Positions 255-34,663 of a stretch of DNA of 34,663 bases are shown here, in pieces; position 1 is the first letter of the stretch, and each line of letters opens with the position of its first letter. The DNA comes from a virus. The stretch is taken from positions 1-34,663 of IMG/VR virus record IMGVR_UViG_3300031251_000072; one strand, given 5' to 3'. The position numbers and the translations under genes were made by a program. The notes below the pieces were generated by a model. That model made no database searches. It was not told the DNA's origin and worked only from the letters and a program-made list of their open reading frames with translations.

Positions 255-713
255 TCACCCCGCCCGCATTTCAAATTTAACCATCAACAAGCCCGGTTTA
301 AACTCCGCCGTCTGCAAAAAAACAAACCCCAAGCGCCGCAACCAACGGATAGTCTTAAGATTGCGGCAATCCACCCAATTAAACAACACCGGATAGCGCT
401 CCAACATCAGCGCCACCCTAAGCCGCGCCTCGGCATGCAACCGAAAGCCATAGCTATCCAATAGATCAGTACCCACCAGCCAGGGATTACCCGACACAGA
501 CACCCCGCCAATACAAATCAAATGATCGCAAACCCGCGCGGCAAACAAAAAATCAGGATCGCTGAGCCTAACGGAGTCATAAACAGCAGAGTATCTAGAC
601 GTATAATTAGGTATACAATCCAGTTCATCCCTATCAGCCTGACGCATATTTTCTATCAGCACCGCCATATCCGCCGTTGTCGGCGCTCTAAACTCAATCT
701 CGCTAGCCCTCAT
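255..713 (-). CDS. T7 gp13-like internal virion protein (GNAT-fold, DUF2833 type)
   Basis: This 152-aa protein begins EIEFRAPTTADMAVLIENMR and continues with a GNAT-like pattern. DELDCIPNY and DFLFAARVCDHLICIGGVSV form the beta-strand region. RLRVALMLERYP and NLKTIRWLRRLGFVF resemble the last helix and strand of an acetyltransferase fold. T7 gp13 belongs to a phage family with this fold, and it is a virion protein, so enzymatic activity is doubtful. The start overlaps the end of the tailspike gene by 11 bp and the stop sits two bases before the gp14-like start, so the three are probably translated from one late mRNA. A true acetyltransferase modifying a virion or host component is the alternative. 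Confidence 0.6.
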   Translation of the reverse strand: MRASEIEFRAPTTADMAVLIENMRQADRDELDCIPNYTSRYSAVYDSVRLSDPDFLFAARVCDHLICIGGVSVSGNPWLVGTDLLDSYGFRLHAEARLRVALMLERYPVLFNWVDCRNLKTIRWLRRLGFVFLQTAEFKPGLLMVKFEMRAG

Positions 714-3700
714 TCAAAACCCTCCCAATCTGCGGATACTGCGGAAAAAAACTAAACCTATCGCCATCGTCCGCCTTCCAACTGCCAATTCCTGCAAAGC
801 CGTCGGCCAACGCCTGATTAACCGCCCTGCTCATCGTCGCCGGCGTTCCCATAAACGCCGCGCTGCCAAAATTCGACCAGGTATTTTCGGCGTCTTGATT
901 GCTCATCAAGCCCTCAACCAAAAACCCCTGCGCCAATCCGTCCCAATAGTCGGTGTTGGTGTCAACGCCGCCGGTCCATGTATCTGAAAACGCATTACAC
1001 CCCACCAGTACCCGGCACCTAAAGCGGTAGGGGATAGTAGTCAAAACATATTGATACACCTCATTCCAAAACCACTGCGGCGCATGCGGTATAGCTGTCG
1101 TGCTGCCGGCGTTCTCGGTATAGGTCATGATATGCATCATATCCACCCGCTGTACCAACGTTGCATAGTCACACCAGCCGGTCCACGTAGCCACCAAATC
1201 GTAAGAAGTGCCGGTAATCGCCGGTACCGCTATATGGCATTCTTTGCGAATGGCGTGCAGCGCATCCGCCGCAGCCAAAATAAACGCAGTCGCCGCCGCG
1301 CGGTCTGTTTGCAGCACATTCTCAATATCGATAATCGCCCCGTCCCAGCCATCCGCCGTCACGGCAGCAACGAGAGCCGTTACATAGCCCGAATACGCGC
1401 TAACCACCGTATGAGCCAATGCGCCGTCAAAATCACCCAGCGCATAATTAAAATTAGTCACATACAGCAAACATTTAATCCCGCGCGACTGCAAAAACGT
1501 CTTATCGTTCGGATAGGCGGCGACCTCGGAAACAGCGCCGTGACCCGTACCTGTCGCCCAGCTTTCGCCGGCGGTAAAAGAGCCGCTAAAACCCGTAATC
1601 GAACAAATCGAATGATTAGCATCACCATTAAACCACTCCACCACGCCAGAACCCGAAGGCCCGCTAATTGACTGAGCCGCCGAAATCGTCCCGGTAATCG
1701 CCGCACTAAACGTAATGTACGTGCGGCCATCGTTAAGCCGGCTTTTATAAATACCGCCAGCCGCATTAAAGCTATAAGCATCAAACCCCACGAACTTAAG
1801 CGCCCCGTACGCGTAACGTATCGTTGCATTTCCCCCGGCATCCGGCTCAAGACTGGTCTGCCATTTCACGCCACCGTGTTGCGCATCCGGCCACAGCGCC
1901 CCACAAAACGCCGCCAAATTATTCAGGCTAGTTGCAATCGGCGCATCACCATAAATCAACAACCGCGCCATCGCCCACTTAGTTTTTCGTATGCCGGGTT
2001 CATCCAGCAGACCATCTACATGATTGACGCTTGGCCAAGTGCCTTGCCCATCCACAAACCCACACGCGGCCATCACAGCCTTCATGCCGGCGCTAATATC
2101 CTGGGTATTGGTCAATATAGCCGGCCCAGATGCAGCCTCATCATATGCGCCAAACGGATAAACAATCCGCGTCGGCGATCCAGAGGAACCGGCGACATAG
2201 GAAAAAGTTTTAATGAATGGCCGACCAACCGCGTAATTGCTGGCGTAAATATCAGAACCTGTGTTTTGCAAATAATAAGCCGCCGGCGCAGTGCCAAAAC
2301 CATACACATAAGGCACCGCGCCATACTGATCGACATAAATACGCAGCAAAGAGGCCTGTCCGGTATAAGGGCAGGCATTGTTGGTCAAAAAACGAATCCA
2401 ATAATTGCCGCCACCAAAGGTATAAGGCGTATCCAGCGTAATTTCCTGCCAGCCATAATCTGTATAGTTTGGCGCAAAAGTCGCGACCAGCGTCCAAGGC
2501 CCGGTATGCGAGGTGCCTATATAGCAACCCGCTTGGATAGGATAATAGTCGCCCAGGTTAGCTACAAACTTAAACGCCAGCGTGTAAGCAGTATGCGGCA
2601 CGTCAGGCACGTACAAAAATTGGCTATCAACCTTAGTGCCATCAAGATAGGTCCCGAACGCGACACCGACATACAACAACGGCGATTCCTCAAAATACCC
2701 ATTGTCGTGCTCAGTCCACACCGCCGCCAAATACTGATTAATCGCTTGATTATTCGTCAGCAAATCCGCCTGTATCGCCGCGTCAAATGTTGCCGTACTC
2801 ACCAGCGCCCCTGTGCCATCGCCTAAAATCATCACCGGCACGGCAGGCATGGCCGAACCAGCCGGGTAGTCAATCATAGTCGTAACGTTATTAACGCCAG
2901 GGACAACAGACACACAATTTGACGTGCAACTAAAATTGCCGGTAAAGTCCGGCAGCGCATAACAGCGCATCAAACCCGGCCCGATATTCTGTGTCGCAAA
3001 CGTCAACGTGTACGATGTCCCGGCTACCACAGCAAACGGCGTCGTCAGCTGAAGCGTAACAAACTCCCGCTCTTTCCATTGGGACCGAGTTGGATATGCT
3101 GTTGGCTCAATCACACCAGCAAACACCAATGTGGCTCCAACAGTAACATGCAAACTTACTGCATAGCCAGCCCCCGCCGGTACGCCCAACGCCGCCCAAA
3201 AGCGGATAAGGCTCACAGTCATAGATAGCGTAGCATTGAACGTAATGGCAGTAGTGATAGGTGTCGAGCCGGCAGTCACCCCGCCCTGTGGTGTCAGTGT
3301 CGCCGCGTCGGTGCCCATGATCGGCAAGCCCCAACTCACGCCCTCAATGTAGGACCAATCCCACCAATTGCGCGTATCACCAGCCTTTTTATGGAAAACC
3401 ATGCCGTTATCGTTCCACCAAGGCCCTTGCATAATCGGCTGAGTATCGCCCGCCACATCACTGATATTCAAGTGATGCAGATTATAGGTATGGCTCATAA
3501 TCTCGCATAAGCCGCTGGCCACGTAGCCCTGCAAAGTCGCCCAACTAATAAAATCGCCCTCGGGATTGCGCAGGTGCAAGCGCCGGCCAATAATCGCCAC
3601 GCTAAACGGTATCTTATTCTGCATCAGCCAGATCGCAGCTAGGCTAATAGACGCTAAGCCGTCATCAAACTGTATACAAGCAATCGGCCCGGCAGGCGTC

Positions 3701-3891
3701 CACGCCCCAGATCGCCACGCGCTATATTGAGTCGGCGAAACAAACTGATAACCCAAGTTCTGCATATAATTAATATGCATAATAAAGTGATCCATCCGCT
3801 CCCGATATGTCAATCCCACGCTGTTAGCCGCCACAAAACCGTGATACACAATCACCACATTGTTCAAGCCGTTGCGCCTAAAACTAGCCAT
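703..3891 (-). CDS. Giant tailspike: split polysaccharide deacetylase (CE4, PgaB-like) fused to a GH18-like hydrolase
   Basis: This 1062-aa protein sits at the tail-fibre position. The N-terminus shows carbohydrate esterase 4 motifs: YHGF (16-19), FDDG (75-78) and SHTYNLHH (133-140). H134 and H139 have the five-residue spacing of the PgaB metal histidines. The third motif, YPFGAYDE, appears only at 578-585. Two beta-rich blocks interrupt the deacetylase, at about 160-355 and 390-555. Both resemble jelly rolls (the second has Trp/Tyr-rich WQEITLDTPYTF and NYWIRF) and probably bind sugar. The C-terminal part (about 695-1062) is a TIM-barrel type with DGAIIDIE at 850-857, the GH18 acid motif with D855 and E857 kept, plus MMHIMTY at 918-924. 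A small beta insertion lies at about 715-790. I infer an enzyme that deacetylates and cuts an N-acetylglucosamine polymer on the host surface. It overlaps the upstream fibre-anchor gene by 8 bp. Confidence 0.8.
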   Translation of the reverse strand: MASFRRNGLNNVVIVYHGFVAANSVGLTYRERMDHFIMHINYMQNLGYQFVSPTQYSAWRSGAWTPAGPIACIQFDDGLASISLAAIWLMQNKIPFSVAIIGRRLHLRNPEGDFISWATLQGYVASGLCEIMSHTYNLHHLNISDVAGDTQPIMQGPWWNDNGMVFHKKAGDTRNWWDWSYIEGVSWGLPIMGTDAATLTPQGGVTAGSTPITTAITFNATLSMTVSLIRFWAALGVPAGAGYAVSLHVTVGATLVFAGVIEPTAYPTRSQWKEREFVTLQLTTPFAVVAGTSYTLTFATQNIGPGLMRCYALPDFTGNFSCTSNCVSVVPGVNNVTTMIDYPAGSAMPAVPVMILGDGTGALVSTATFDAAIQADLLTNNQAINQYLAAVWTEHDNGYFEESPLLYVGVAFGTYLDGTKVDSQFLYVPDVPHTAYTLAFKFVANLGDYYPIQAGCYIGTSHTGPWTLVATFAPNYTDYGWQEITLDTPYTFGGGNYWIRFLTNNACPYTGQASLLRIYVDQYGAVPYVYGFGTAPAAYYLQNTGSDIYASNYAVGRPFIKTFSYVAGSSGSPTRIVYPFGAYDEAASGPAILTNTQDISAGMKAVMAACGFVDGQGTWPSVNHVDGLLDEPGIRKTKWAMARLLIYGDAPIATSLNNLAAFCGALWPDAQHGGVKWQTSLEPDAGGNATIRYAYGALKFVGFDAYSFNAAGGIYKSRLNDGRTYITFSAAITGTISAAQSISGPSGSGVVEWFNGDANHSICSITGFSGSFTAGESWATGTGHGAVSEVAAYPNDKTFLQSRGIKCLLYVTNFNYALGDFDGALAHTVVSAYSGYVTALVAAVTADGWDGAIIDIENVLQTDRAAATAFILAAADALHAIRKECHIAVPAITGTSYDLVATWTGWCDYATLVQRVDMMHIMTYTENAGSTTAIPHAPQWFWNEVYQYVLTTIPYRFRCRVLVGCNAFSDTWTGGVDTNTDYWDGLAQGFLVEGLMSNQDAENTWSNFGSAAFMGTPATMSRAVNQALADGFAGIGSWKADDGDRFSFFPQYPQIGRVLNEG

Positions 3892-4525
3892 TGCTTACCA
3901 CAATCAGGCTAAACTGCAAGCCCACCGCGCCAGCAGCAAAGGTAATATCCATGCTGGTGTAATAACTCGCAGCGCCCACCACGGTTTGATTCAGCACCCA
4001 GCTAACCGCCGAATTATTCCCATTGACGCATATATATATAGTGGGCGCAGTCGCAAAGGTCAGCGACGGAAACGTAATATGCACCGCCGTACCCGTAACG
4101 CTAAAGGTCTCAGCATAACTAATTCGCTGCAACGCCGGCAAATTGGTCGGGTTCTGGATCATATCCAGCAGCTGCTGCGACAGGATCGCCAAGTAATCAA
4201 TAATCGGATTAATCACCCCCGGCCAAAACCCGCCGGCGGAACTGATAGCCGCTTCCTGCAGAAAGGGTAGCGCGGAAATGATGGTCAGCGTATAACCCGC
4301 CGGCAATGCATTCGCCAGCGTCACAGTGCCGCCAGGACCCGCCAAAGCACCGTTCACGCTCACGGTAAAATCAGTACCGTACGTCAGCTCCACCTGACCG
4401 ACCACAGCGGAGGAAATCGTACAAGCCACTTGCGTAGGATCAAACACCAAAAACGGAAACGAAAACGTACTTACCAGCCCGTTGCCACTATACACCGCCC
4501 GCCGCGTTGAAGAAGTAACCGCCAC
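3884..4525 (-). CDS. Tail fibre anchor / adaptor protein, T7 gp17 N-terminal type
   Basis: This 213-aa protein starts at a GTG directly after the TAA of the tail-nozzle gene, with an AGGGGG ribosome site just upstream. Its N-terminal half, with RRAVYSGNGLVSTFSFPFLV, DPTQVACTIS, YGTDFTVS and the helix NPIIDYLAILSQQLLDMIQ, matches the virion-binding domain of T7-like tail fibres. In T7 this domain is followed by a long triple-stranded fibre. Here the protein stops after a short beta-rich C-terminus, and the receptor-active part is the separate downstream tailspike gene. It therefore probably serves as an adaptor between the tail and the spike, an arrangement known from phages with modular depolymerases. 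Confidence 0.8.
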   Translation of the reverse strand: MAVTSSTRRAVYSGNGLVSTFSFPFLVFDPTQVACTISSAVVGQVELTYGTDFTVSVNGALAGPGGTVTLANALPAGYTLTIISALPFLQEAAISSAGGFWPGVINPIIDYLAILSQQLLDMIQNPTNLPALQRISYAETFSVTGTAVHITFPSLTFATAPTIYICVNGNNSAVSWVLNQTVVGAASYYTSMDITFAAGAVGLQFSLIVVSNG

Positions 4526-6757
4526 TTAACCCCCTGCCGCGATTTCCATCGCTACATAAGAAATTTCCAGCGGCAAAGGGTCGCTCATCTGCACATACAC
4601 CATGCCATCCTGATTGCTATCCGGCATGATCGTCAATTGATACTCACCACTGAACAACGGCGGCGGCGTACCCGGCGCTTGATTATCCCGCAACGTAATA
4701 GCGTTTAATACCGCCAGTGACGGACCGGCTTTAAACGCGCCGCTGTTCACGATCCGCGCCCAGATCTTGTTAATATTTTTAACGTGGCCAAAACCAAACG
4801 TCTGATCTTGGAATGACGCCGGCGGCAAACCCATTTGACACGTCATCGGCAAACCCACCTGCACCACAGTTGCCGCCGCATCCAACGTAATTGCGCCACC
4901 AGTAACAACCTTTTGGTTATTCACCGCGCCATCGCCCAGCACGTTGACCGTCTGCCCCTCAAGCCAAGTAATGCCGGATATAGTCGTTATTGGTCCGGTT
5001 AGCGACGTATACGTAAACCCGCAATCTACACAATACGCACTTGATTGCGCGGTCCACTGCCGGGTATCCATATATTCTATATAGCGCACGGTAGCGCCAT
5101 TAATTACCCGCCGCACCACCAAATACAACACATCGTGATCGGTCTCTGTCACGGTTGCTATGGATTCAACAAACCCATTAACTGTCACATGTTGGTGCCA
5201 GGCTTGGACCTGCTGATCCGGCAGATACGTGCAGCCCAACAACACACCCGTACTGCTCAGCGCCCAGATCACTGGATAAGGCGAACGGCTATACGCCAGA
5301 TCGACAATCGTATAACCATCAAACAAATGCTTAGACATCAAAGACAAATCATCAGACTGATAGCCATTCATCTGCCACGAATAAGACATCGTACGCAAAT
5401 GACCACCCACAGCCGCGACATAAACCGCCAAATTATTAGCAATCACAGGCTGCACACCGGAAGCGCCGTTTTGCGCCTGCGCTTTGATGGATATGGTTGA
5501 AGGCGTCAGCGCCGAGCCATTATCAGAAAATATCCGCCATTCGGTCGAAGCCGTCAGCGCGATCATGTCCAACAGCGTCACCAAATGCGAAATAAAATTA
5601 GCTTTCTGCGCGGCAATCGCAACCCGCAAAGCGTCATTAGCTTGCGAGGGGATGGAATAATTCATATTGTTTTGGGTACCGGACTGGGTACCCCATAAAT
5701 TCTCGGGCTGATTATTCGTCCCAGCAAACCAGCGCCGTTGCTCGTAATAACCCACAGCAGACGGATAATTTCCAGTAGTCGTGAACAGCATAGCGCTGGT
5801 AGAGCCGTAATCGTAATCGTGTTGTGGCGGCGTCCGCGTAAAATCCGGCGTAATATTATTATCAATCAACTGCAACGCAGTCACCTGACCCACAAACCCA
5901 AACGCACCGGAAATCGACTTATAAACATTGTACAAAGTCGCGCCGGACACAGTCGCCCAGGTAATCGTATTAAAATTGCCGGAAATCGTCAGATCATTAG
6001 ACACCGGTGTAGTATTCAAAGACGCTACGGATTCTTCGAGACCGTTAGAATCCAGCGCCGTAATCACATAAGTCTGGGTATTCGGATAGCCGGCATGGGC
6101 ATAAGTCGCCGCACACGCGGGCGACGTAGGCGCTAAAATAAGCGACGCAAACGACACCGGCACAAACGACCACCAAAGATTCCCGTACCTCCGCAACTCC
6201 ATAGGCGGATACTTTGGATGCACCAACGTAACAATATCGCCGGACTGCACATAATGAATATCGAATAAATCCGCCTCAGCATAACTATTCGCTACTTGAT
6301 AAGGCGTCTTAGACGCGTCCGACGGCGCAACCGCCCAATAAGCCCCGGCCACCGGCACAACATTAGTATTTGCGGTTAAGCAATTCCAGTTAAACCCCCC
6401 ATAAAAAACGACCCAGCCGGGTTTATATGCCTGGGTGTTGCTCCAGCTCGTACAGTTGCCAATCAGCAACTGAGCGCCCAAACTCCAAAACCGAAAATAC
6501 CCGGCGCCAAGCTCAAGCACAAAGGTCTGCGAAGCCGAAAACGAAAATGAAATAATCCGCGTCGGCTGTGTACTATTCAAGATACTGCCGGCATAGCGGG
6601 TGCCGCCCCGCGTCATCACGCCACCCTGAGGCAAATGCAAAAAATTCTTGCTCAGCGCCAAGCCGTTTTTAACCGGCGCAAGATCCACCCGTCCATATAA
6701 TGACGGGCAAATTTCGCCGCCGGAAAAACTATTGGTGATAGTGCGTATATTCGGCAT
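4526..6757 (-). CDS. Tail nozzle protein, T7 gp12 / tail tubular protein B-like
   Basis: This 743-aa protein begins TITNSFSGGEICPSLYGRVD, followed by NFLHLPQGGVMTRGGTRY. That is the signature start of the podoviral tail tubular B family, which forms the hexameric nozzle where fibres and spikes dock. The rest is beta-rich and consistent with the usual family length (700-800 aa). It includes one fibronectin-like stretch (ALDSNGLEESVASLNT, TITWATVSGATLYNVYKS) near residues 230-285. The start codon overlaps the stop of the preceding 32-aa gene by one base (TAATG), so translation is probably coupled. It lies between tail tubular A and the fibre anchor as in T7. Confidence 0.85.
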   Translation of the reverse strand: MPNIRTITNSFSGGEICPSLYGRVDLAPVKNGLALSKNFLHLPQGGVMTRGGTRYAGSILNSTQPTRIISFSFSASQTFVLELGAGYFRFWSLGAQLLIGNCTSWSNTQAYKPGWVVFYGGFNWNCLTANTNVVPVAGAYWAVAPSDASKTPYQVANSYAEADLFDIHYVQSGDIVTLVHPKYPPMELRRYGNLWWSFVPVSFASLILAPTSPACAATYAHAGYPNTQTYVITALDSNGLEESVASLNTTPVSNDLTISGNFNTITWATVSGATLYNVYKSISGAFGFVGQVTALQLIDNNITPDFTRTPPQHDYDYGSTSAMLFTTTGNYPSAVGYYEQRRWFAGTNNQPENLWGTQSGTQNNMNYSIPSQANDALRVAIAAQKANFISHLVTLLDMIALTASTEWRIFSDNGSALTPSTISIKAQAQNGASGVQPVIANNLAVYVAAVGGHLRTMSYSWQMNGYQSDDLSLMSKHLFDGYTIVDLAYSRSPYPVIWALSSTGVLLGCTYLPDQQVQAWHQHVTVNGFVESIATVTETDHDVLYLVVRRVINGATVRYIEYMDTRQWTAQSSAYCVDCGFTYTSLTGPITTISGITWLEGQTVNVLGDGAVNNQKVVTGGAITLDAAATVVQVGLPMTCQMGLPPASFQDQTFGFGHVKNINKIWARIVNSGAFKAGPSLAVLNAITLRDNQAPGTPPPLFSGEYQLTIMPDSNQDGMVYVQMSDPLPLEISYVAMEIAAGG

Positions 6758-11679: not shown

Positions 11680-12738
11680 TTACGAAATCACCGCCTCAAC
11701 ATTCGAAATCGCATCCACCTTACGCAAAGGAATCCCCTCAAACGAAGCCCAACGTTGCACGGTGCCAAACTGATCAGCCCCCTGCTCCAAAGCCAACGCA
11801 TAAGTAGACTTCTCCATCGCCTGTCTACGCAGCAAGGAATACACCGACCGATTCATATAAAACGCCGGCCTCAACCCCGCCATATTCGGAATCCTATCAA
11901 TCGCCCGCAGCATCAAATGGATCAACTGATTAGCGTAAACAGTACCCGAGCCCACCTGTTGATTGCCGGACATCGCCGCAAAGGTCGAAGTATCCAAATT
12001 ACAAATCCGCACCACATAGCGCCAATCCTTCACGCACAAACCGTTATCCCAGGCGTAATGCGCCTGATAAGCTTTGTACGGATTATTCGCCGTGTCATAC
12101 ACCGTCAACAAGCCATCGTCCTCATAATTCAAACCCGCCTTAGAGCCCTTCGGAAACGGACAAAAAACCGAATTTTCCCCCCAACAGATCAACCAAACCG
12201 AAGTCTGCTGATTCGCCGTAACCCCGCCGCCGCTTAAGATATTCGCCGCATTCCCAGGATTCGCGGAAATAGCCGAATAGCGCCCGCTCAACCCCAAATA
12301 CTGCCGAGGATCGCCGCCGGAAACAGCAGGGTTAGGATTCGCATAAAACATCGCCCAAGCCTGTTCCTGATTCATCGCCTCCATAAAGCCGGAATCCTCA
12401 GACTGCCTAAACGCCGCCGCATTGCCGTTCAGCTCCATCAACTTCTGATCGACGCGCGAATAAGCCTCCAACATCCCGCACGCTTCATCCACCTGCGCAG
12501 TGGTGGATTTGCTGCCCGGCACCCCTTGGTTAATCGACCGCCAATACACCGCCGGCAAGCCGGTTCTAATCGTACAACGATGTCCAGTCGGTAAATTCCC
12601 TTCCAAAAACACCGCATCTTCTAAAATCTCGTTTTGCTGAGACAAAATCTCAGCAATCCGCGTCTCAATCCCGCCATCCGGCGCAAGCCGCTTAGCCCAA
12701 TCGGCCAAGGTCAACGCGCCCGCTGCTAAAGCTGCCAT
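11680..12738 (-). CDS. Major capsid protein, BPP-1 Bbp17-like (HK97 fold)
   Basis: This 352-aa protein begins with an N-terminal helix (LTLADWAKRLAPDGGIETRIAEIL), then NEILEDAVFLEGNLPTGHRCT and TGLPAVYWRSINQGVPGSKS. This set of motifs marks the major capsid proteins of BPP-1-like podoviruses. It contains a clear P-domain-like stretch (ANQLIHLMLRAIDRIPNMAG followed by PAFYMNRSVYSLLRRQ). No separate protease is present and scaffold is a distinct upstream gene. GGAGTG lies at ribosome-site distance from the ATG. The downstream cement gene supports the call. Confidence 0.88.
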   Translation of the reverse strand: MAALAAGALTLADWAKRLAPDGGIETRIAEILSQQNEILEDAVFLEGNLPTGHRCTIRTGLPAVYWRSINQGVPGSKSTTAQVDEACGMLEAYSRVDQKLMELNGNAAAFRQSEDSGFMEAMNQEQAWAMFYANPNPAVSGGDPRQYLGLSGRYSAISANPGNAANILSGGGVTANQQTSVWLICWGENSVFCPFPKGSKAGLNYEDDGLLTVYDTANNPYKAYQAHYAWDNGLCVKDWRYVVRICNLDTSTFAAMSGNQQVGSGTVYANQLIHLMLRAIDRIPNMAGLRPAFYMNRSVYSLLRRQAMEKSTYALALEQGADQFGTVQRWASFEGIPLRKVDAISNVEAVIS

Positions 12739-27559: not shown

Positions 27560-28362
27560 GTAAACCTTTACGTGTTTTAAGTCTTGGTGCCGGGGTCCAG
27601 TCATCAACATTGGCGCTAATGGCAGCCCATGGCGAAATCGAAATGCCCGATTGTGCGATTTTCGCTGATGTTCAAAGTGAGCCCGCCTCGGTTTATATTT
27701 GGTTGGATTGGTTGGAAAAGCAACTACCGTTCCCAGTTTATCGGGTGTCGGCTGGTGTGCTAGCAGATACCGCTCTACAAGTTCGAATTTCGAAGAGTGG
27801 CACCCATTACCAAAAGTCGTCGCCGCCCGCCTTCATAATTGATGATTCTTTTGCTGTTGGCTTATTAAAGCGGCAATGCACATCCGATTTTAAAATTACA
27901 CCGATAATTCGCAAATTGCGCGAGCTTGGAGGCAAAGAATCTGGTGTTTCTCAGATCATCGGAATTAGCTGGGATGAGCGGATCAGGATGAAGCCTGCTC
28001 GTTATTCATGGATCACAAATACTTACCCTCTAATCGATCATCGCATTACTCGCACACAGTGCAAAGAGTGGATGGCAGCTAAAGGCTATCCAGAGCCGCC
28101 CCGGTCTAGCTGCTATATCTGCCCATATCGCTCTTCGGATGAATGGGTTCGCCTGCAAACTAATGAACCTGAATATTTCGATAAAGCGATAACTTGGGAA
28201 AAACAATTCCAAACAACAATGCATCAAGTGTCTGGATTTCGCGGAACGCCTTTTTTAAATCGCGAATGCAAACCTCTTGATCAAATTGATTTTGCATCGC
28301 AATTGATAAGTCATCAAGTTGATTTATTTGGACAAGAATGCGAAGGAATGTGTGGCGTATGA
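27556..28362 (+). CDS. PAPS-reductase-like (adenine nucleotide alpha hydrolase, DndC-related) enzyme
   Basis: This 268-aa protein starts at a GTG in GTGA overlap. A PP-loop type nucleotide site SLGAGVQSST lies at 9-18. Other motifs are IFADVQSEPASVYIWLDWL, RQCTSDFKITPIIRKL (Cys108) and SQIIGISWDERIRMKP. The C-terminal RSSCYICPYRSSDEW holds Cys186 and Cys189, and Cys169 is in TRTQCKEW. Four cysteines could hold an iron-sulphur cluster as in sulphur-transfer enzymes of this superfamily. It overlaps the methyltransferase by 4 bp. It may prepare sulphur or adenylated substrates for DNA modification rather than assimilate sulphate, as no other sulphate genes are present. Confidence 0.8.
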   Translation: MSKPLRVLSLGAGVQSSTLALMAAHGEIEMPDCAIFADVQSEPASVYIWLDWLEKQLPFPVYRVSAGVLADTALQVRISKSGTHYQKSSPPAFIIDDSFAVGLLKRQCTSDFKITPIIRKLRELGGKESGVSQIIGISWDERIRMKPARYSWITNTYPLIDHRITRTQCKEWMAAKGYPEPPRSSCYICPYRSSDEWVRLQTNEPEYFDKAITWEKQFQTTMHQVSGFRGTPFLNRECKPLDQIDFASQLISHQVDLFGQECEGMCGV

Positions 28363-29876
28363 AAACGAAACTTATCGTAGACATCTTCGCCGGGGGCGGC
28401 GGCGTCAGCACCGGAATCTACATGGCCACTGGCCGCCATCCCGACATTGCGATCAATCATAGCGACGACGCACTTTCCATGCACCGCGTCAACCATCCGA
28501 AAGCTCGGCATTTTATTGCCGATGTATACGAGGTTTGTCCGTTAGGGGCTACCCAGGGCAAGCCAGTTGGTTGGTTGCATATGAGCCCCGATTGCCGTCA
28601 TCACAGCCAGGCCGCCGGTGGACAGCCCCGCAGCAACAAAATTCGCGGACTCGCCTGGGTAGGTTATCGCTGGGCCGGGCAGGTTAAACCCGACGTAATC
28701 AGCTTGGAAAATGTTACCCAGATTTTGAAATGGGGCCCACTGATTGCAAAACGCTGTAAATCTACCGGGCGCGTCATCAAGTTGGATGGAACAGTAGCAT
28801 TACCAGGCGAACGTGTACCCGTTCAAGAGCAATACCTTATTCCCAATCCAAAACGCGCAGGCCAAACGTGGCGCCGGTTTACTGCCGCCATTCAATCGCT
28901 AGGCTATTCACTGGAAAGCAAAACGCTTTGTGCGGCAGATTTTGGAGCACCCACCACCCGCGAGCGCTTATTTATGATCGCGCGACGGGATGGTAATCAA
29001 ATAGCTTGGCCTGAACCTTCCCATTTTAAAAAACCCACAAAAGAGCAAACTAAATGGCGAGCCGCAGCGGAATGCATTGACTTCAATATTCCCTGTCAGA
29101 GCATTTTCGACCGCAAAAAACCCTTGGCTGACGCCACAATGCGCCGGATCGCCAAGGGATTAAAACGCTATGTGCTGGAAAGCGCGGATCCGTATATCGT
29201 TCAAATCGCACATTACGATGGCCAGAACCGAACGCACTCAATACATAATCCGCTCAAAACTATAACAGCGGCCACCAAAGGAGGAGAATTCGCAATGGGC
29301 GTTCCAGTGATTGTGCCTGCAACCCACCAAGGCGCGGACAGGGTTAATGACATACAAGAACCATTAAAAACGGTGACGGCTGCACATCGCGGCGAAATGA
29401 TGCTATCGACTCCAATTCTCGTAAAATTTAGGGCGGAAAGTTCGGGATCGTCAATTGAAGATCCAACCGCCACAATAACAACTGAAAACAGATTGTGTAC
29501 GTTATCGCCAGAGCACGAAGAGAAAGCGCAACGAGTGGCCGCCTTCCTAATGCATTACTACACAGAAGGTGGAAGCCAGCACGGATCGCTAAAAAATCCA
29601 ATGGCGACCATCACCACCAAGGACCGACTCGCTCTTGTCACAGTAACAGTAAACGGTACACCGCACGTCATTATCGATATCGGCCTGCGCATGTTGCAAC
29701 CTGCGGAACTGTTCAGAGCGCAGGAATTCCCTGACACCTACGGCATTGAGCAAGGTCACGATGGCCGAAAGTTTTCAAAAACCATACAAGTAAGGCTATG
29801 CGGCAACAGCGTCCCACCACCTTTAATGGAAGCGATTGTTCGCGCCAACATTGATCAAGCTGGTTATTTGAAATGA
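28359..29876 (+). CDS. Variant C5-cytosine DNA methyltransferase with repeated target domain
   Basis: The product is 505 aa. Motif I is VDIFAGGGGVSTGI (7-20). The catalytic motif IV is SPDCRHHSQAAGG, with Cys79 in PDC rather than PPC. Motif VI is LENV (116-119), motif VIII TTRERLFMIARR and motif X GNSVPPPL (482-489). The region between VIII and X holds five copies of a P-L/x-x-TIT unit: near 255, 298, 335, 369 and 414. The variant PDC motif and these repeats mark a phage-type group. It probably methylates cytosines, or acts on a modified base made by the neighbour. Confidence 0.88.
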   Translation: MKTKLIVDIFAGGGGVSTGIYMATGRHPDIAINHSDDALSMHRVNHPKARHFIADVYEVCPLGATQGKPVGWLHMSPDCRHHSQAAGGQPRSNKIRGLAWVGYRWAGQVKPDVISLENVTQILKWGPLIAKRCKSTGRVIKLDGTVALPGERVPVQEQYLIPNPKRAGQTWRRFTAAIQSLGYSLESKTLCAADFGAPTTRERLFMIARRDGNQIAWPEPSHFKKPTKEQTKWRAAAECIDFNIPCQSIFDRKKPLADATMRRIAKGLKRYVLESADPYIVQIAHYDGQNRTHSIHNPLKTITAATKGGEFAMGVPVIVPATHQGADRVNDIQEPLKTVTAAHRGEMMLSTPILVKFRAESSGSSIEDPTATITTENRLCTLSPEHEEKAQRVAAFLMHYYTEGGSQHGSLKNPMATITTKDRLALVTVTVNGTPHVIIDIGLRMLQPAELFRAQEFPDTYGIEQGHDGRKFSKTIQVRLCGNSVPPPLMEAIVRANIDQAGYLK

Positions 29877-30942: not shown

Positions 30943-31918
30943 GGCAACATTTACAAAGCGCGGCGACAGTTGGTACGTACGAGTTAGAATCAAAGGCATC
31001 AGTAGGGCGGGCAGCTTTCCGACAAAGGGGAAAGCTCAAGCCTGGGCCACGCAAACCGAAGCGGATATTTTAGCTGGAAAAGCAGAACAGGCCCCCAGTA
31101 CAAAAACATTGGCCGAGGCATTCGACCGATACGCCGAAGTTATTTCCCCCACTAAACGCGGATCCAGATGGGAAATTATTCGATTAAATAAATTCAAATC
31201 CCTGCCGTTTGCTTCTCATAAAATAGGGGAGGTCACTACACCCACGCTAGCCGAATGGCGAGACGAACAATTGAAAACGCTAAAATCCAGTAGCGTAAAC
31301 CGCGAAATGAACCTGCTTGCATCCGTCTTTGAAATCGCGCGGCGCGAATGGAAATGGATAGAGATAAATCCGATAAGAGACGTAACCCGGCCAGCCCAGC
31401 CGAGGCACAGGGAAAGACTTTATAATACAGACGAAATAACTAAAATCACCAACCAACTTGGATATACAAAAGCCAAGCCGGAAACGAAACAACAAATCAT
31501 TGCAGCAGCCTTTCTGTTCGCACTCGAAACCGCCATGCGCCGCGAAGAAATTACCACACTAACATGGGATCGTGTCAGCTTAAACGATAGATTCATCACG
31601 CTGCCGATGACCAAAAACGGCGAGGCCAGAGACGTCCCGCTCACGACAAAAGCGGTCGAAATCTTAAAAAAAATGCAGCACCTGGAAACACCGTTTCCGG
31701 TCGATAAAGATGTCCTGTCGACATTATTCCGCCGTGCCTGCAACGATACGGGCATAAAAGACGCTCACTTCCACGACTCCAGAGCCAACGCCATCACCGC
31801 ATTATCTCAGCAGCTCGATATACTGGAATTGGCTAGAGCAATAGGGCATAGGGATGTAAGAAGCTTACAAATTTACTACCGAAAGACAGCGGCAGATATT
31901 GCTAAAAAACTCCGCTAA
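30941..31918 (+). CDS. int: Tyrosine integrase
   Basis: The product is 325 aa from ATG 30941. The N-terminus GDSWYVRVRIKGISRAGSFP is an arm-binding domain, and the core-binding part lies at about 60-150. The catalytic residues are R200 (ETAMRREE), K225, H278-x-x-R281 (HFHDSRAN), H303 (AIGHRDV) and tyrosine Y313 (or Y312) in LQIYYRK. All are present, so it should be active. GTG at 30923 lies inside the right arm site and is less likely as start. The gene ends 4 bp inside the convergent virion gene with no terminator between. Confidence 0.93.
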   Translation: MATFTKRGDSWYVRVRIKGISRAGSFPTKGKAQAWATQTEADILAGKAEQAPSTKTLAEAFDRYAEVISPTKRGSRWEIIRLNKFKSLPFASHKIGEVTTPTLAEWRDEQLKTLKSSSVNREMNLLASVFEIARREWKWIEINPIRDVTRPAQPRHRERLYNTDEITKITNQLGYTKAKPETKQQIIAAAFLFALETAMRREEITTLTWDRVSLNDRFITLPMTKNGEARDVPLTTKAVEILKKMQHLETPFPVDKDVLSTLFRRACNDTGIKDAHFHDSRANAITALSQQLDILELARAIGHRDVRSLQIYYRKTAADIAKKLR

Positions 31919-34663
31919 TGCCGCACTCCCAACCCCAAAGCCAAAGGATTCCCCGTCTCACCCTCAGCAATCGCCTGCACCCCAGACCAAGTATTATTAA
32001 TCTGTACAGCCGGCAATCCCATCGTTTCCCCAAGCTCCGTAACAAAAGCCTTCCTAAACTGCTTATCAAACTCCCCTTGCCAACCCTGTTGAGCCAACGC
32101 CGCCGTATCGTACACAAGACGCAACCCCGTAGGCCCATTGTAATTATCCAAACCGTTCGAAATCATAGACCCCATTTCCCGGCCGCCGGCAAACAACCCA
32201 AACAAAAAGGAAAATTCCTCTTTCAAAGCCCTAGCCCACACCTCATCGTCATCACCACCGCCCACAGTAGGCGTCAGCAAATCTTTCAGCAACCAAGTTA
32301 GCTGCGGCACCACCACCAGCAACAACAGCATATCCACCCCGGTTTTCGCCGTCTCACGCGCCGCCGCGTCTTTATTCTTATTCACCTTGTACGACAAATA
32401 GACGTTATTCAATGTCATATTCATAAACGAATAAAACGCCGTAAACAGTTTGATCAGCGCCGGCCCGCGCTCGATCCCGGACTGATCGACCGTTTCGCCG
32501 CCGCCTTGCGAATCTTTTACCGCTTGGTCAGCCAGCGACACCGCCAAATCATGGTCATTCGGATCCGCATCCAGCGCCTTCAAATAGCCACCCCACCAAG
32601 TCGGAATATCCGCCAACAACTGCGCACGCACCAGCAGCCAATACCCATAGCGGCTCATAAACTCCTTAAACCCACTCGGCCCGTTCATCTGCGTGGCTAA
32701 TTCATGCAGATCCCGAAAGCGGTTCTGCGTACGCTGCTGAAGATAAACCGAAAACTGCATAGCCTCTCTTGCCGACTCAATCGGACTGGACGCGTACTTA
32801 GTCACCCCTTGGCCCCACCACTTCCAGCCCAATCGCGGAATAGAGTTAACCACGCCTATCGGCTGCAACATCGCCGTTTTCACCGAGAACGCCAGCGCCG
32901 ACAGCGTCACCGATTGCCGCAAATACCCGGCCCAGCGTTCCAGCTGGTGATTTAATTTAGTCTGGCCCAAAATAATATCATTGCGCCAGGCCTCAAACTC
33001 TTCATGCACCGTCGGACCGTAATAGTTGGACATCGCTTCAAAGATGGACCGGTCCCGCAACAACCGATTCATATCAATAACCCATTCATGCCAAGCCAAG
33101 TCATGAATTACATTGCTCACACCAGAATAAAGCCCCTGAATATTCAGCAGCAAAGGCCGCCCGTTCAGCTCTTCCACCCGAGTCTCCAAATGCCCCCGCC
33201 GAGTCGCCGCAGCAGAAAACGCCGCTTTCATCGCATCCTTTAAATCCTGGGTATTGGAATTTTGCCGAGACATCAAATTCACACGCGGATCAAACACCAC
33301 CGGATAATATCCGCCTTTCAATGTTACGGTCTGGCCGTCCGCTGTTTTAATAGTGATAGGCCGCGCCTTAATCCACAACGGCCCTTTAATCCCTAACCGC
33401 TTCTGCTTAGCCTCAATCAGCGGTCGGTACATTTCAAAATGATTCCAAACCTGTTGCGCCGCCAATACCTGATCACTAGTCAACGTCTCCAACACATCCA
33501 TCACCTGCCGGGGAGTCAACCGCTCAGCCACGTTCGCAATCCCGCCCTGCATCAACCGGCTCATGTTCGATTCGTTGCCCACATTCAGCAGCACCGCAAA
33601 ACGTTCCATAAAATTCAGCGACACGCCCGGAATGCTGGCGATTTTCCGCCCCTTACCGACCTTATCCATCACCGGCACCTTAGCCAGCACCGGCCGCAAT
33701 ATAGCATCCAGGGCGGCTACAGCATCACTCTTCAACCCAGTTTCATACGAAGCCCGCTCATTCGCCGGCATCAACATATAGCGCCACAGCGCGCCGTTAT
33801 CCTTACCGCCATCCATAATCCGGATCCAGATCGGTACCCGGATATGCGCAATGCCAAAGGAATAAATTTTCTGCCCCCAACGGCCAATCAAATCGTTCGC
33901 GGACCTGACATTTTTCCCGCCCTTGCCGCCGTGGTCGACAATCTCCGCGTGGATATCATCCCGAATCTCTTCAAAGCTTTTCTTATCCAGCGCCGTTAAC
34001 ATGCGATGCTTAAGCCGCCCCAACTGCTCGATAGTTTGCACGGTATCGTACAAACCGCGCATTTCTTCAACCGTCGCATCTTTGTAAGACTTCACGGAGC
34101 TTTTATCGATCAAGTCCGCCAATAACTTAATCTGCTCTTCGTCATCCGCATAAATCAAATTACCGTTGCTATCACGGCTTTCAATCGCCGCCAAATACTC
34201 GGCCATCGCCTCCGCATTCAGCAAGGTTTCAGAAATATATGGCACCTCGCCCTCAGCAAGCCGCGCCTGCACCCAGCCACGCAACTTAGATACCTTGTCG
34301 ATTTTCGCGCCCGACAGCTGCCGGAAGTTATACTTATCCAGCAAGCCCCTAATTTCATCGGCATAATCGAAATCGATTTTTTTCAAATCGCTGGTGTAAA
34401 ACTTCTTAAAGTAGCGGACAAACTTATCAATATCATCCTGCGCACTAAACGCCTCACGCGCCGCATAAAAATTGATTTGCTGATTACGCTTTTCCGCTGC
34501 CGCCGTTTTAATATCGCCCGCTTTTTCCGCACTTGACGACGCAGCCGCCGCCCGCGACTCAGCGCGTTGATACTGGCCAGGATTCAAATCCCGCACCTTC
34601 AACTTGGCAATCAGCTGCTCAGCAAAGGCTTTGGCCGCCTGCATCAATAGCTTTTTCTCCCCG
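31915..34663 (-). CDS. Very large virion (ejection / polyvalent) protein, C-terminal 916 aa (partial)
   Basis: The frame stays open beyond the window end, so the visible part is the C-terminus. The N-side is helical (KAFAEQLIAKLKVRDLNPGQ, RAAAASSSAEKAGDIKTAAA). The last 400 residues contain LRQSVTLSALAFSVKTAMLQ, WLLVRAQLLADIPTWWGG, ADQAVKDSQGGG, ALIKLFTAFYSFMNMTLNNV and a hydrophobic helix GVDMLLLLVVVPQLTWLLKD. This C-terminus (AD...W.GY....A, Q, F..F.N) is typical of the giant podoviral proteins ejected with DNA, the analogue of T7 gp16. The gene is in the same orientation as the gp14-like gene at the other window edge, so they probably belong to one operon. Convergent overlap with int is 4 bp. 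Confidence 0.7.
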   Translation of the reverse strand, partial: GEKKLLMQAAKAFAEQLIAKLKVRDLNPGQYQRAESRAAAASSSAEKAGDIKTAAAEKRNQQINFYAAREAFSAQDDIDKFVRYFKKFYTSDLKKIDFDYADEIRGLLDKYNFRQLSGAKIDKVSKLRGWVQARLAEGEVPYISETLLNAEAMAEYLAAIESRDSNGNLIYADDEEQIKLLADLIDKSSVKSYKDATVEEMRGLYDTVQTIEQLGRLKHRMLTALDKKSFEEIRDDIHAEIVDHGGKGGKNVRSANDLIGRWGQKIYSFGIAHIRVPIWIRIMDGGKDNGALWRYMLMPANERASYETGLKSDAVAALDAILRPVLAKVPVMDKVGKGRKIASIPGVSLNFMERFAVLLNVGNESNMSRLMQGGIANVAERLTPRQVMDVLETLTSDQVLAAQQVWNHFEMYRPLIEAKQKRLGIKGPLWIKARPITIKTADGQTVTLKGGYYPVVFDPRVNLMSRQNSNTQDLKDAMKAAFSAAATRRGHLETRVEELNGRPLLLNIQGLYSGVSNVIHDLAWHEWVIDMNRLLRDRSIFEAMSNYYGPTVHEEFEAWRNDIILGQTKLNHQLERWAGYLRQSVTLSALAFSVKTAMLQPIGVVNSIPRLGWKWWGQGVTKYASSPIESAREAMQFSVYLQQRTQNRFRDLHELATQMNGPSGFKEFMSRYGYWLLVRAQLLADIPTWWGGYLKALDADPNDHDLAVSLADQAVKDSQGGGETVDQSGIERGPALIKLFTAFYSFMNMTLNNVYLSYKVNKNKDAAARETAKTGVDMLLLLVVVPQLTWLLKDLLTPTVGGGDDDEVWARALKEEFSFLFGLFAGGREMGSMISNGLDNYNGPTGLRLVYDTAALAQQGWQGEFDKQFRKAFVTELGETMGLPAVQINNTWSGVQAIAEGETGNPLALGLGVRH

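Follow-up and report, generated by a model that had tools for sequence, protein, structure and literature searches.

A single gene in the virus record IMGVR_UViG_3300031251_000072 of IMG/VR (34,663 nucleotides, analysed at full length and called the window here) encodes a 1062-residue protein in which a deacetylase of the PgaB/IcaB type, i.e., the circularly permuted form of carbohydrate esterase family 4 (CE4), is followed by a glycoside hydrolase family 18 (GH18) barrel. In the reading favored here, with a probability of roughly 0.7, a short-tailed phage carries this protein in its virion as an enzyme that processes polysaccharide, built from a split deacetylase and GH18 and held on the tail by a separately encoded adaptor.

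Identification begins with the two ends of the chain. Residues 12-161 match TIGR03938 (PgaB; E 4.9e-13) and residues 820-1041 match PF00704 (GH18; 7.1e-7, at the curated cut-off of that family), while sequences of PDB entries are matched for IcaB (4wcj, 1.2e-12) and for a GH18 protein (4q6t, 3.7e-10). A preliminary description, made from the sequence alone, had placed the deacetylase motifs YHGF, FDDG and HxxxxH near the N-terminus, the motif YPFGAYDE at 578-585 and a GH18-type motif toward the C-terminus, and all were located there: YHG at residue 16, FDDG at 75, HTYNLH at 134-139, YPFG at 578 and DGAIIDIE at 850. As sequence comparisons, these motif and family matches are far above chance. 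Circular permutation of PgaB-type CE4 deacetylases has been documented (PMC5855634, PMC13366581).

Relatives were sought by tblastn on phage records and by scanning IMG/VR and a collection of genomes with profiles. A single-sequence viral scan and the first genome scan returned none, and it was alignment queries that found them. Seventeen distinct members with the split deacetylase are now recognized, 14 of which run through GH18: the window protein, 15 from IMG/VR phage contigs (one being Pseudomonas phage PMBT3) and one from a contig of a Rhodocyclaceae metagenome-assembled genome (MAG). The only full-length tblastn relative among phage records is gp23 of PMBT3 (29% identity in an alignment covering 99% of the query), and BFVD gave no convincing full-length match. 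Among 369 genomes of the class to which the MAG (holding member L029) belongs, the full arrangement occurs in that MAG only; elsewhere DUF2460 is found alone.

Residues 1-693 were modelled with AlphaFold2 (AF2) from the 17-sequence alignment; the GH18 part lies outside the model and is described from sequence profiles. Mean pLDDT is 78.4 and pTM 0.78, with much of the deacetylase core above 90 and residues 525-554, 581-595 and 669-693 below 50. VIA-align superposes the model on E. coli PgaB (4f9d) with a Z of 22.6 at 2.5 Å, over 254 residues distributed across 7-675; IcaB (4wcj, Z 22.3) and PplD (6dq3, Z 21.7) follow, AaPgaB is also close, and the first non-deacetylase fold in the list appears at Z 10. 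Because the superposition on PgaB spans residues 7-675, one PgaB barrel can be built from approximately 7-197, 346-389 and 573-668, and in the model the deacetylase is a single discontinuous barrel formed by three separated pieces of chain. Residues 573-675 join residues 7-140 in this PgaB-like barrel, the packing (555-640 against 1-140) on which the preliminary description had made its proposal depend; its two beta-rich inserts, drawn at 160-355 and 390-555, are found at approximately 198-345 and 390-572. Splicing the inserts out of the deacetylase sequence improved the PDB score only slightly and left second stretches sub-threshold, a suggestive result that was not used as proof.

Hidden Markov model (HMM) alignments pair D76-D77 with the DD of PgaB, and H134 and H139 with its HxxxxH; these four residues and H17 are invariant in 17 of 17 members. 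YPFG (WPFG in L020) is present in every one of the 16 members that reach this region, at a distance of 423-584 residues from the first predicted metal-binding histidine of HxxxxH. Since both the spacing of the motifs and the residues are kept across the family, the split is old and maintained rather than an accident of assembly. The conserved residues predict a metal-dependent deacetylase.

The inserts, M1 and M2, are beta-sandwiches in the model. For M1, which holds a conserved TRxQWxERE block, the fold matches include the Bxb1 tail tip (9d93, Z 8.9), Douge gp20 (a central fibre, Z 8.6) and the phi812 baseplate. M2 occurs as two types across the members, and its matches are to carbohydrate-binding modules (CBM) of families CBM6 (2cdp, Z 8.4), CBM32 and CBM35, and to phi812 9euj (Z 10.2). 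The two inserts are related to each other: hhalign gives M1 against M2A a probability of 96.5, compared with 0.7 for reversed M1, no more than 8.2 in 60 column shuffles and 0.2-0.7 for the unrelated DUF2460. An extra M2 copy, 50% identical to that protein's own M2, lies within the GH18 part of L005, the closest relative (residues 719-884, nucleotides ~12152-12649). Going by the modelled folds, the inserts probably grip the glycan beside the active site.

For the GH18 part, the family profile is nearest to YdhD among PDB entries (8.8e-22), with 5jh8, 4q6t and the cortical-lytic enzyme YaaH (1.6e-11) also matched, and PF00704 scores above its cut-off in the relatives P0003, P0004 and P0007. E857, Y924 and W1038 are invariant among aligned members, and the window protein carries the catalytic-type set D855 and E857 (DxE), Y924 and the barrel-end tryptophan W1038. 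The barrel probably hydrolyses a glycan chain. A further insert within GH18, present in the members listed in Table 1 and absent from PMBT3 and others, went unmentioned in the preliminary description.

Table 1. Features of the enzyme gene and its upstream neighbors (window coordinates)
Feature	Position	Strand	Remarks
Whole enzyme gene, split deacetylase / GH18, tail-associated	703..3891	-	1062 aa, ATG start; full-length homologues
Deacetylase piece 1, residues 7-197	3301..3873	-	with YHG, FDDG, HTYNLH; TIGR03938 and VIA-align
H17, His of N-terminal YH motif	3841..3843	-	expected from permuted PgaB order; invariant in 17 members
D76-D77	3661..3666	-	aligned with DD of PgaB motif 1 (HMM alignment); invariant
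HTYNLH (H134, H139)	3475..3492	-	invariance, HMM alignment; spacing rule from PMC5855634
Insert M1, residues ~198-345	2857..3300	-	predicted beta-sandwich, resembling tail-tip/baseplate modules of phages
Deacetylase piece 2, residues 346-389	2725..2856	-	strands and long helix 366-387
Insert M2, residues ~390-572	2176..2724	-	predicted CBM6/32/35-like beta-sandwich
Deacetylase piece 3, residues 573-668	1888..2175	-	starts with YPFGAY motif; model range to 675
YPFG (578-581)	2149..2160	-	deacetylase motif 3
GH18 domain, residues ~697-1050	742..1803	-	PF00704; profile against PDB
Insert within GH18, residues ~713-785	1537..1755	-	in window, L005, L007, L020, L042
DGAIIDIE (850-857)	1321..1344	-	E857 presumed catalytic acid
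213-aa adaptor	3884..4525	-	N-terminal domain of podovirus tail fibres/tailspikes; overlaps enzyme gene start
Tail protein phrog_376	4526..6757	-	E 3.2e-187

The genes beside the enzyme gene are podovirus-like structural genes. Adaptor and enzyme genes overlap, the stop codon of the first with the start of the second, and the enzyme stop overlaps the gene that follows. The N-terminal 180 residues of the adaptor are common to the epsilon15 tailspike, and 142 N-terminal residues are shared with Bbp9 of BPP-1, in which the next gene encodes the receptor-binding protein Mtd. The stand-alone adaptor is thus the likely anchor of the enzyme on the tail. As a rule, depolymerases of phages take the form of beta-helix spikes or of SGNH esterases. 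The label "tailspike" of the preliminary description appears not to hold in the structural sense: tailspike and pectate-lyase (beta-helix) families found no match in the enzyme family scans, the model of residues 1-693 consists of a barrel and beta-sandwiches, and the probable anchor is a separate gene.

Other members are mounted differently. DUF2460, the distal tail protein of RcGTA, forms the C-terminus of nine members, six by Pfam and three (L020, L029 and L042) by a conserved C-terminal motif. In the one relative checked for its neighborhood, L029, the enzyme gene is preceded by the tape measure gene plus a small open reading frame (ORF) and followed by tail assembly genes. Members lacking DUF2460 (the window protein, L005, PMBT3, L010 and L023) occupy three places on the tree. 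A T7 gp13-like gene follows the enzyme gene in the window (255-713, minus strand) and has an apparent counterpart before the adaptor gene in L005 (8885-9355); this difference in position suggests that adaptor and enzyme move together as a cassette. Elsewhere in the window, an open-ended ORF (31915-34662, minus strand) aligns with the C-terminal portion of phrog_9880 (E 3.4e-185; 2231 aa, function unknown), and positions 28338-29876 (plus strand) encode a DNA methyltransferase family protein (phrog_116).

Under the proposal of a virion-borne dual enzyme, the protein would be held on the tail through the adaptor encoded just upstream and, at adsorption, would bind a host exopolysaccharide containing N-acetylglucosamine (GlcNAc), with the inserts gripping the glycan. 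The deacetylase barrel would strip acetyl groups, GH18 would cut the polysaccharide, and the phage would thereby get to the cell. Computation supports the domain content, the discontinuous barrel, the conserved catalytic residues and the tail-gene setting; attachment by way of the adaptor, glycan binding by the inserts, the two activities (in one step, as the preliminary description put it) and the substrate are inferences. Several points weigh against this account. Characterised GH18 enzymes act mostly on beta-1,4 linkages. CE4 enzymes of the PgaB type, by contrast, use beta-1,6-GlcNAc (PMC5855634), and it is thus not assured that the two barrels share a single substrate. That the inserts bind carbohydrate is suggested by modelled folds with Z of 7-10, and a Pfam scan of the enzyme gave no match to a CBM family. 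At the position of D855, the 14 members that include this region have D solely in the window protein and L005, and N or T in the other 12; the family may therefore include weak or inactive hydrolases, and GH18 activity is likelier for the window protein than across the family.

The same NxE or TxE in place of DxE speaks for another reading, in which the GH18 part would be a binding domain attached to a receptor enzyme that only deacetylates, modifying the glycan uncut as do the SGNH deacetylases of G7C and Possum, and deacetylation by itself suffices for Possum adsorption (PMC9569702). This alternative is judged unlikely, at about one chance in four: the window protein and L005 keep both D855 and E857, and E857, Y924 and W1038 are invariant. 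A little less probable still is that the target is peptidoglycan, cut by a YaaH/YdhD-type GH18 while the deacetylase trims its GlcNAc. The nearest profiles (YdhD, then YaaH) and the "peptidoglycan hydrolase" label of PMBT3 gp23 point that way, whereas relatives of the adaptor bear fibres and tailspikes, which face outward. That the enzyme works outside the virion, as a released or intracellular product for lysis or biofilm dispersal, seems quite improbable; the five members without DUF2460 do carry no recognized anchor domain in the protein, but nine relatives are fused to this tail protein, and the window gene lies within the tail cluster, overlapping the adaptor gene.

Slightly short of even odds is the wider proposition that these proteins are virion enzymes of an unrecognized family. 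Carbohydrate-binding modules paralogous to one another and placed inside catalytic barrels (two in the deacetylase, one more in the GH18 of a relative) would couple binding, deacetylation and cleavage of GlcNAc-type exopolysaccharide in one chain, and the family would have been re-mounted on different tails by DUF2460 fusion or by a separate adaptor. If true, a tail-borne dual enzyme of PgaB-like plan would lend itself naturally to use against the GlcNAc-based polysaccharide of biofilms. The nested, duplicated modules are a clear natural case of domain insertion in a catalytic barrel. Phage tail enzymes that process polysaccharide are already known; the nested two-barrel design is unrecognized so far. 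Literature searches turned up no phage deacetylase combined with GH18, and no paper searched contains the nested design.

Among cellular proteins, E. coli PgaB and BpsB likewise place a permuted CE4 deacetylase before a hydrolase barrel. The preliminary description had spoken of the plan of PgaB, which stands as an analogy for this order and fails for the C-terminal part: PgaB is a biosynthesis protein of the cell without such inserted modules, and its hydrolase belongs to GH153 (PMC13366581). With a GH18 nearest to the YdhD/YaaH type in that place, the chain is PgaB-like in plan and yet no PgaB. Assignment of the whole chain to the TIGR03938 equivalog was rejected: the score is 48 bits where the cut-off is 321.9, and the match ends at model position 168 of 621. 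Matches to Acinetobacter "phage" MD-2021a were also set aside as ordinary bacterial pgaB beside pgaC/pgaD on bacterial-chromosome-like records (CAKLQH020000010.1 and CAKLQF020000014.1; the region read in the first holds pgaB, pgaC, pgaD and housekeeping genes). IcaB (4wcj) and PplD (6dq3) are relatives of the deacetylase barrel, but are non-viral and have neither inserts nor GH18; GH18 proteins annotated as minor tail proteins in Microbacterium and Bacillus phages, and YaaH/YdhD, have the GH18 barrel in common with the window protein, but the stretches matched contain no deacetylase of PgaB type.

Among viruses, the turret head protein of the archaeal virus HFTV1 brings a galactose-binding-like domain and a CE4-like deacetylase into the virion (PMC12494034), but on the capsid, with its domains serial rather than nested and no GH18 reported. 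The SGNH deacetylase fibres G7C gp63.1 and Possum gp66 provide a precedent for tail-borne polysaccharide deacetylation in adsorption, as proposed here (PMC9569702), although their fold is unrelated and Possum gp66 takes off O-acetyl groups. Closest is PMBT3 gp23 (YP_009796574.1; NC_047902.1 24770-27826, L002 14983-18039), which has the split deacetylase, two inserts and GH18 in the same full-length order, its N-terminal two thirds being the PgaB-type deacetylase with the inserts. The claim that no phage spike of this order had been described thus agrees with the literature found, but the PMBT3 protein had already been deposited, labelled only "peptidoglycan hydrolase, YvbX" in one annotation and "minor tail protein" in another, with the deacetylase unannotated; the main text of the PMBT3 genome paper contains neither "hydrolase" nor "deacetylase". 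PMBT3 differs from the window phage in being a long-tailed siphovirus, and its gp23 has an M2 of the other type, no GH18 insert, and NxE for DxE. The family gives this deposited protein a fuller annotation and, in PMBT3, supplies a cultured phage for testing.
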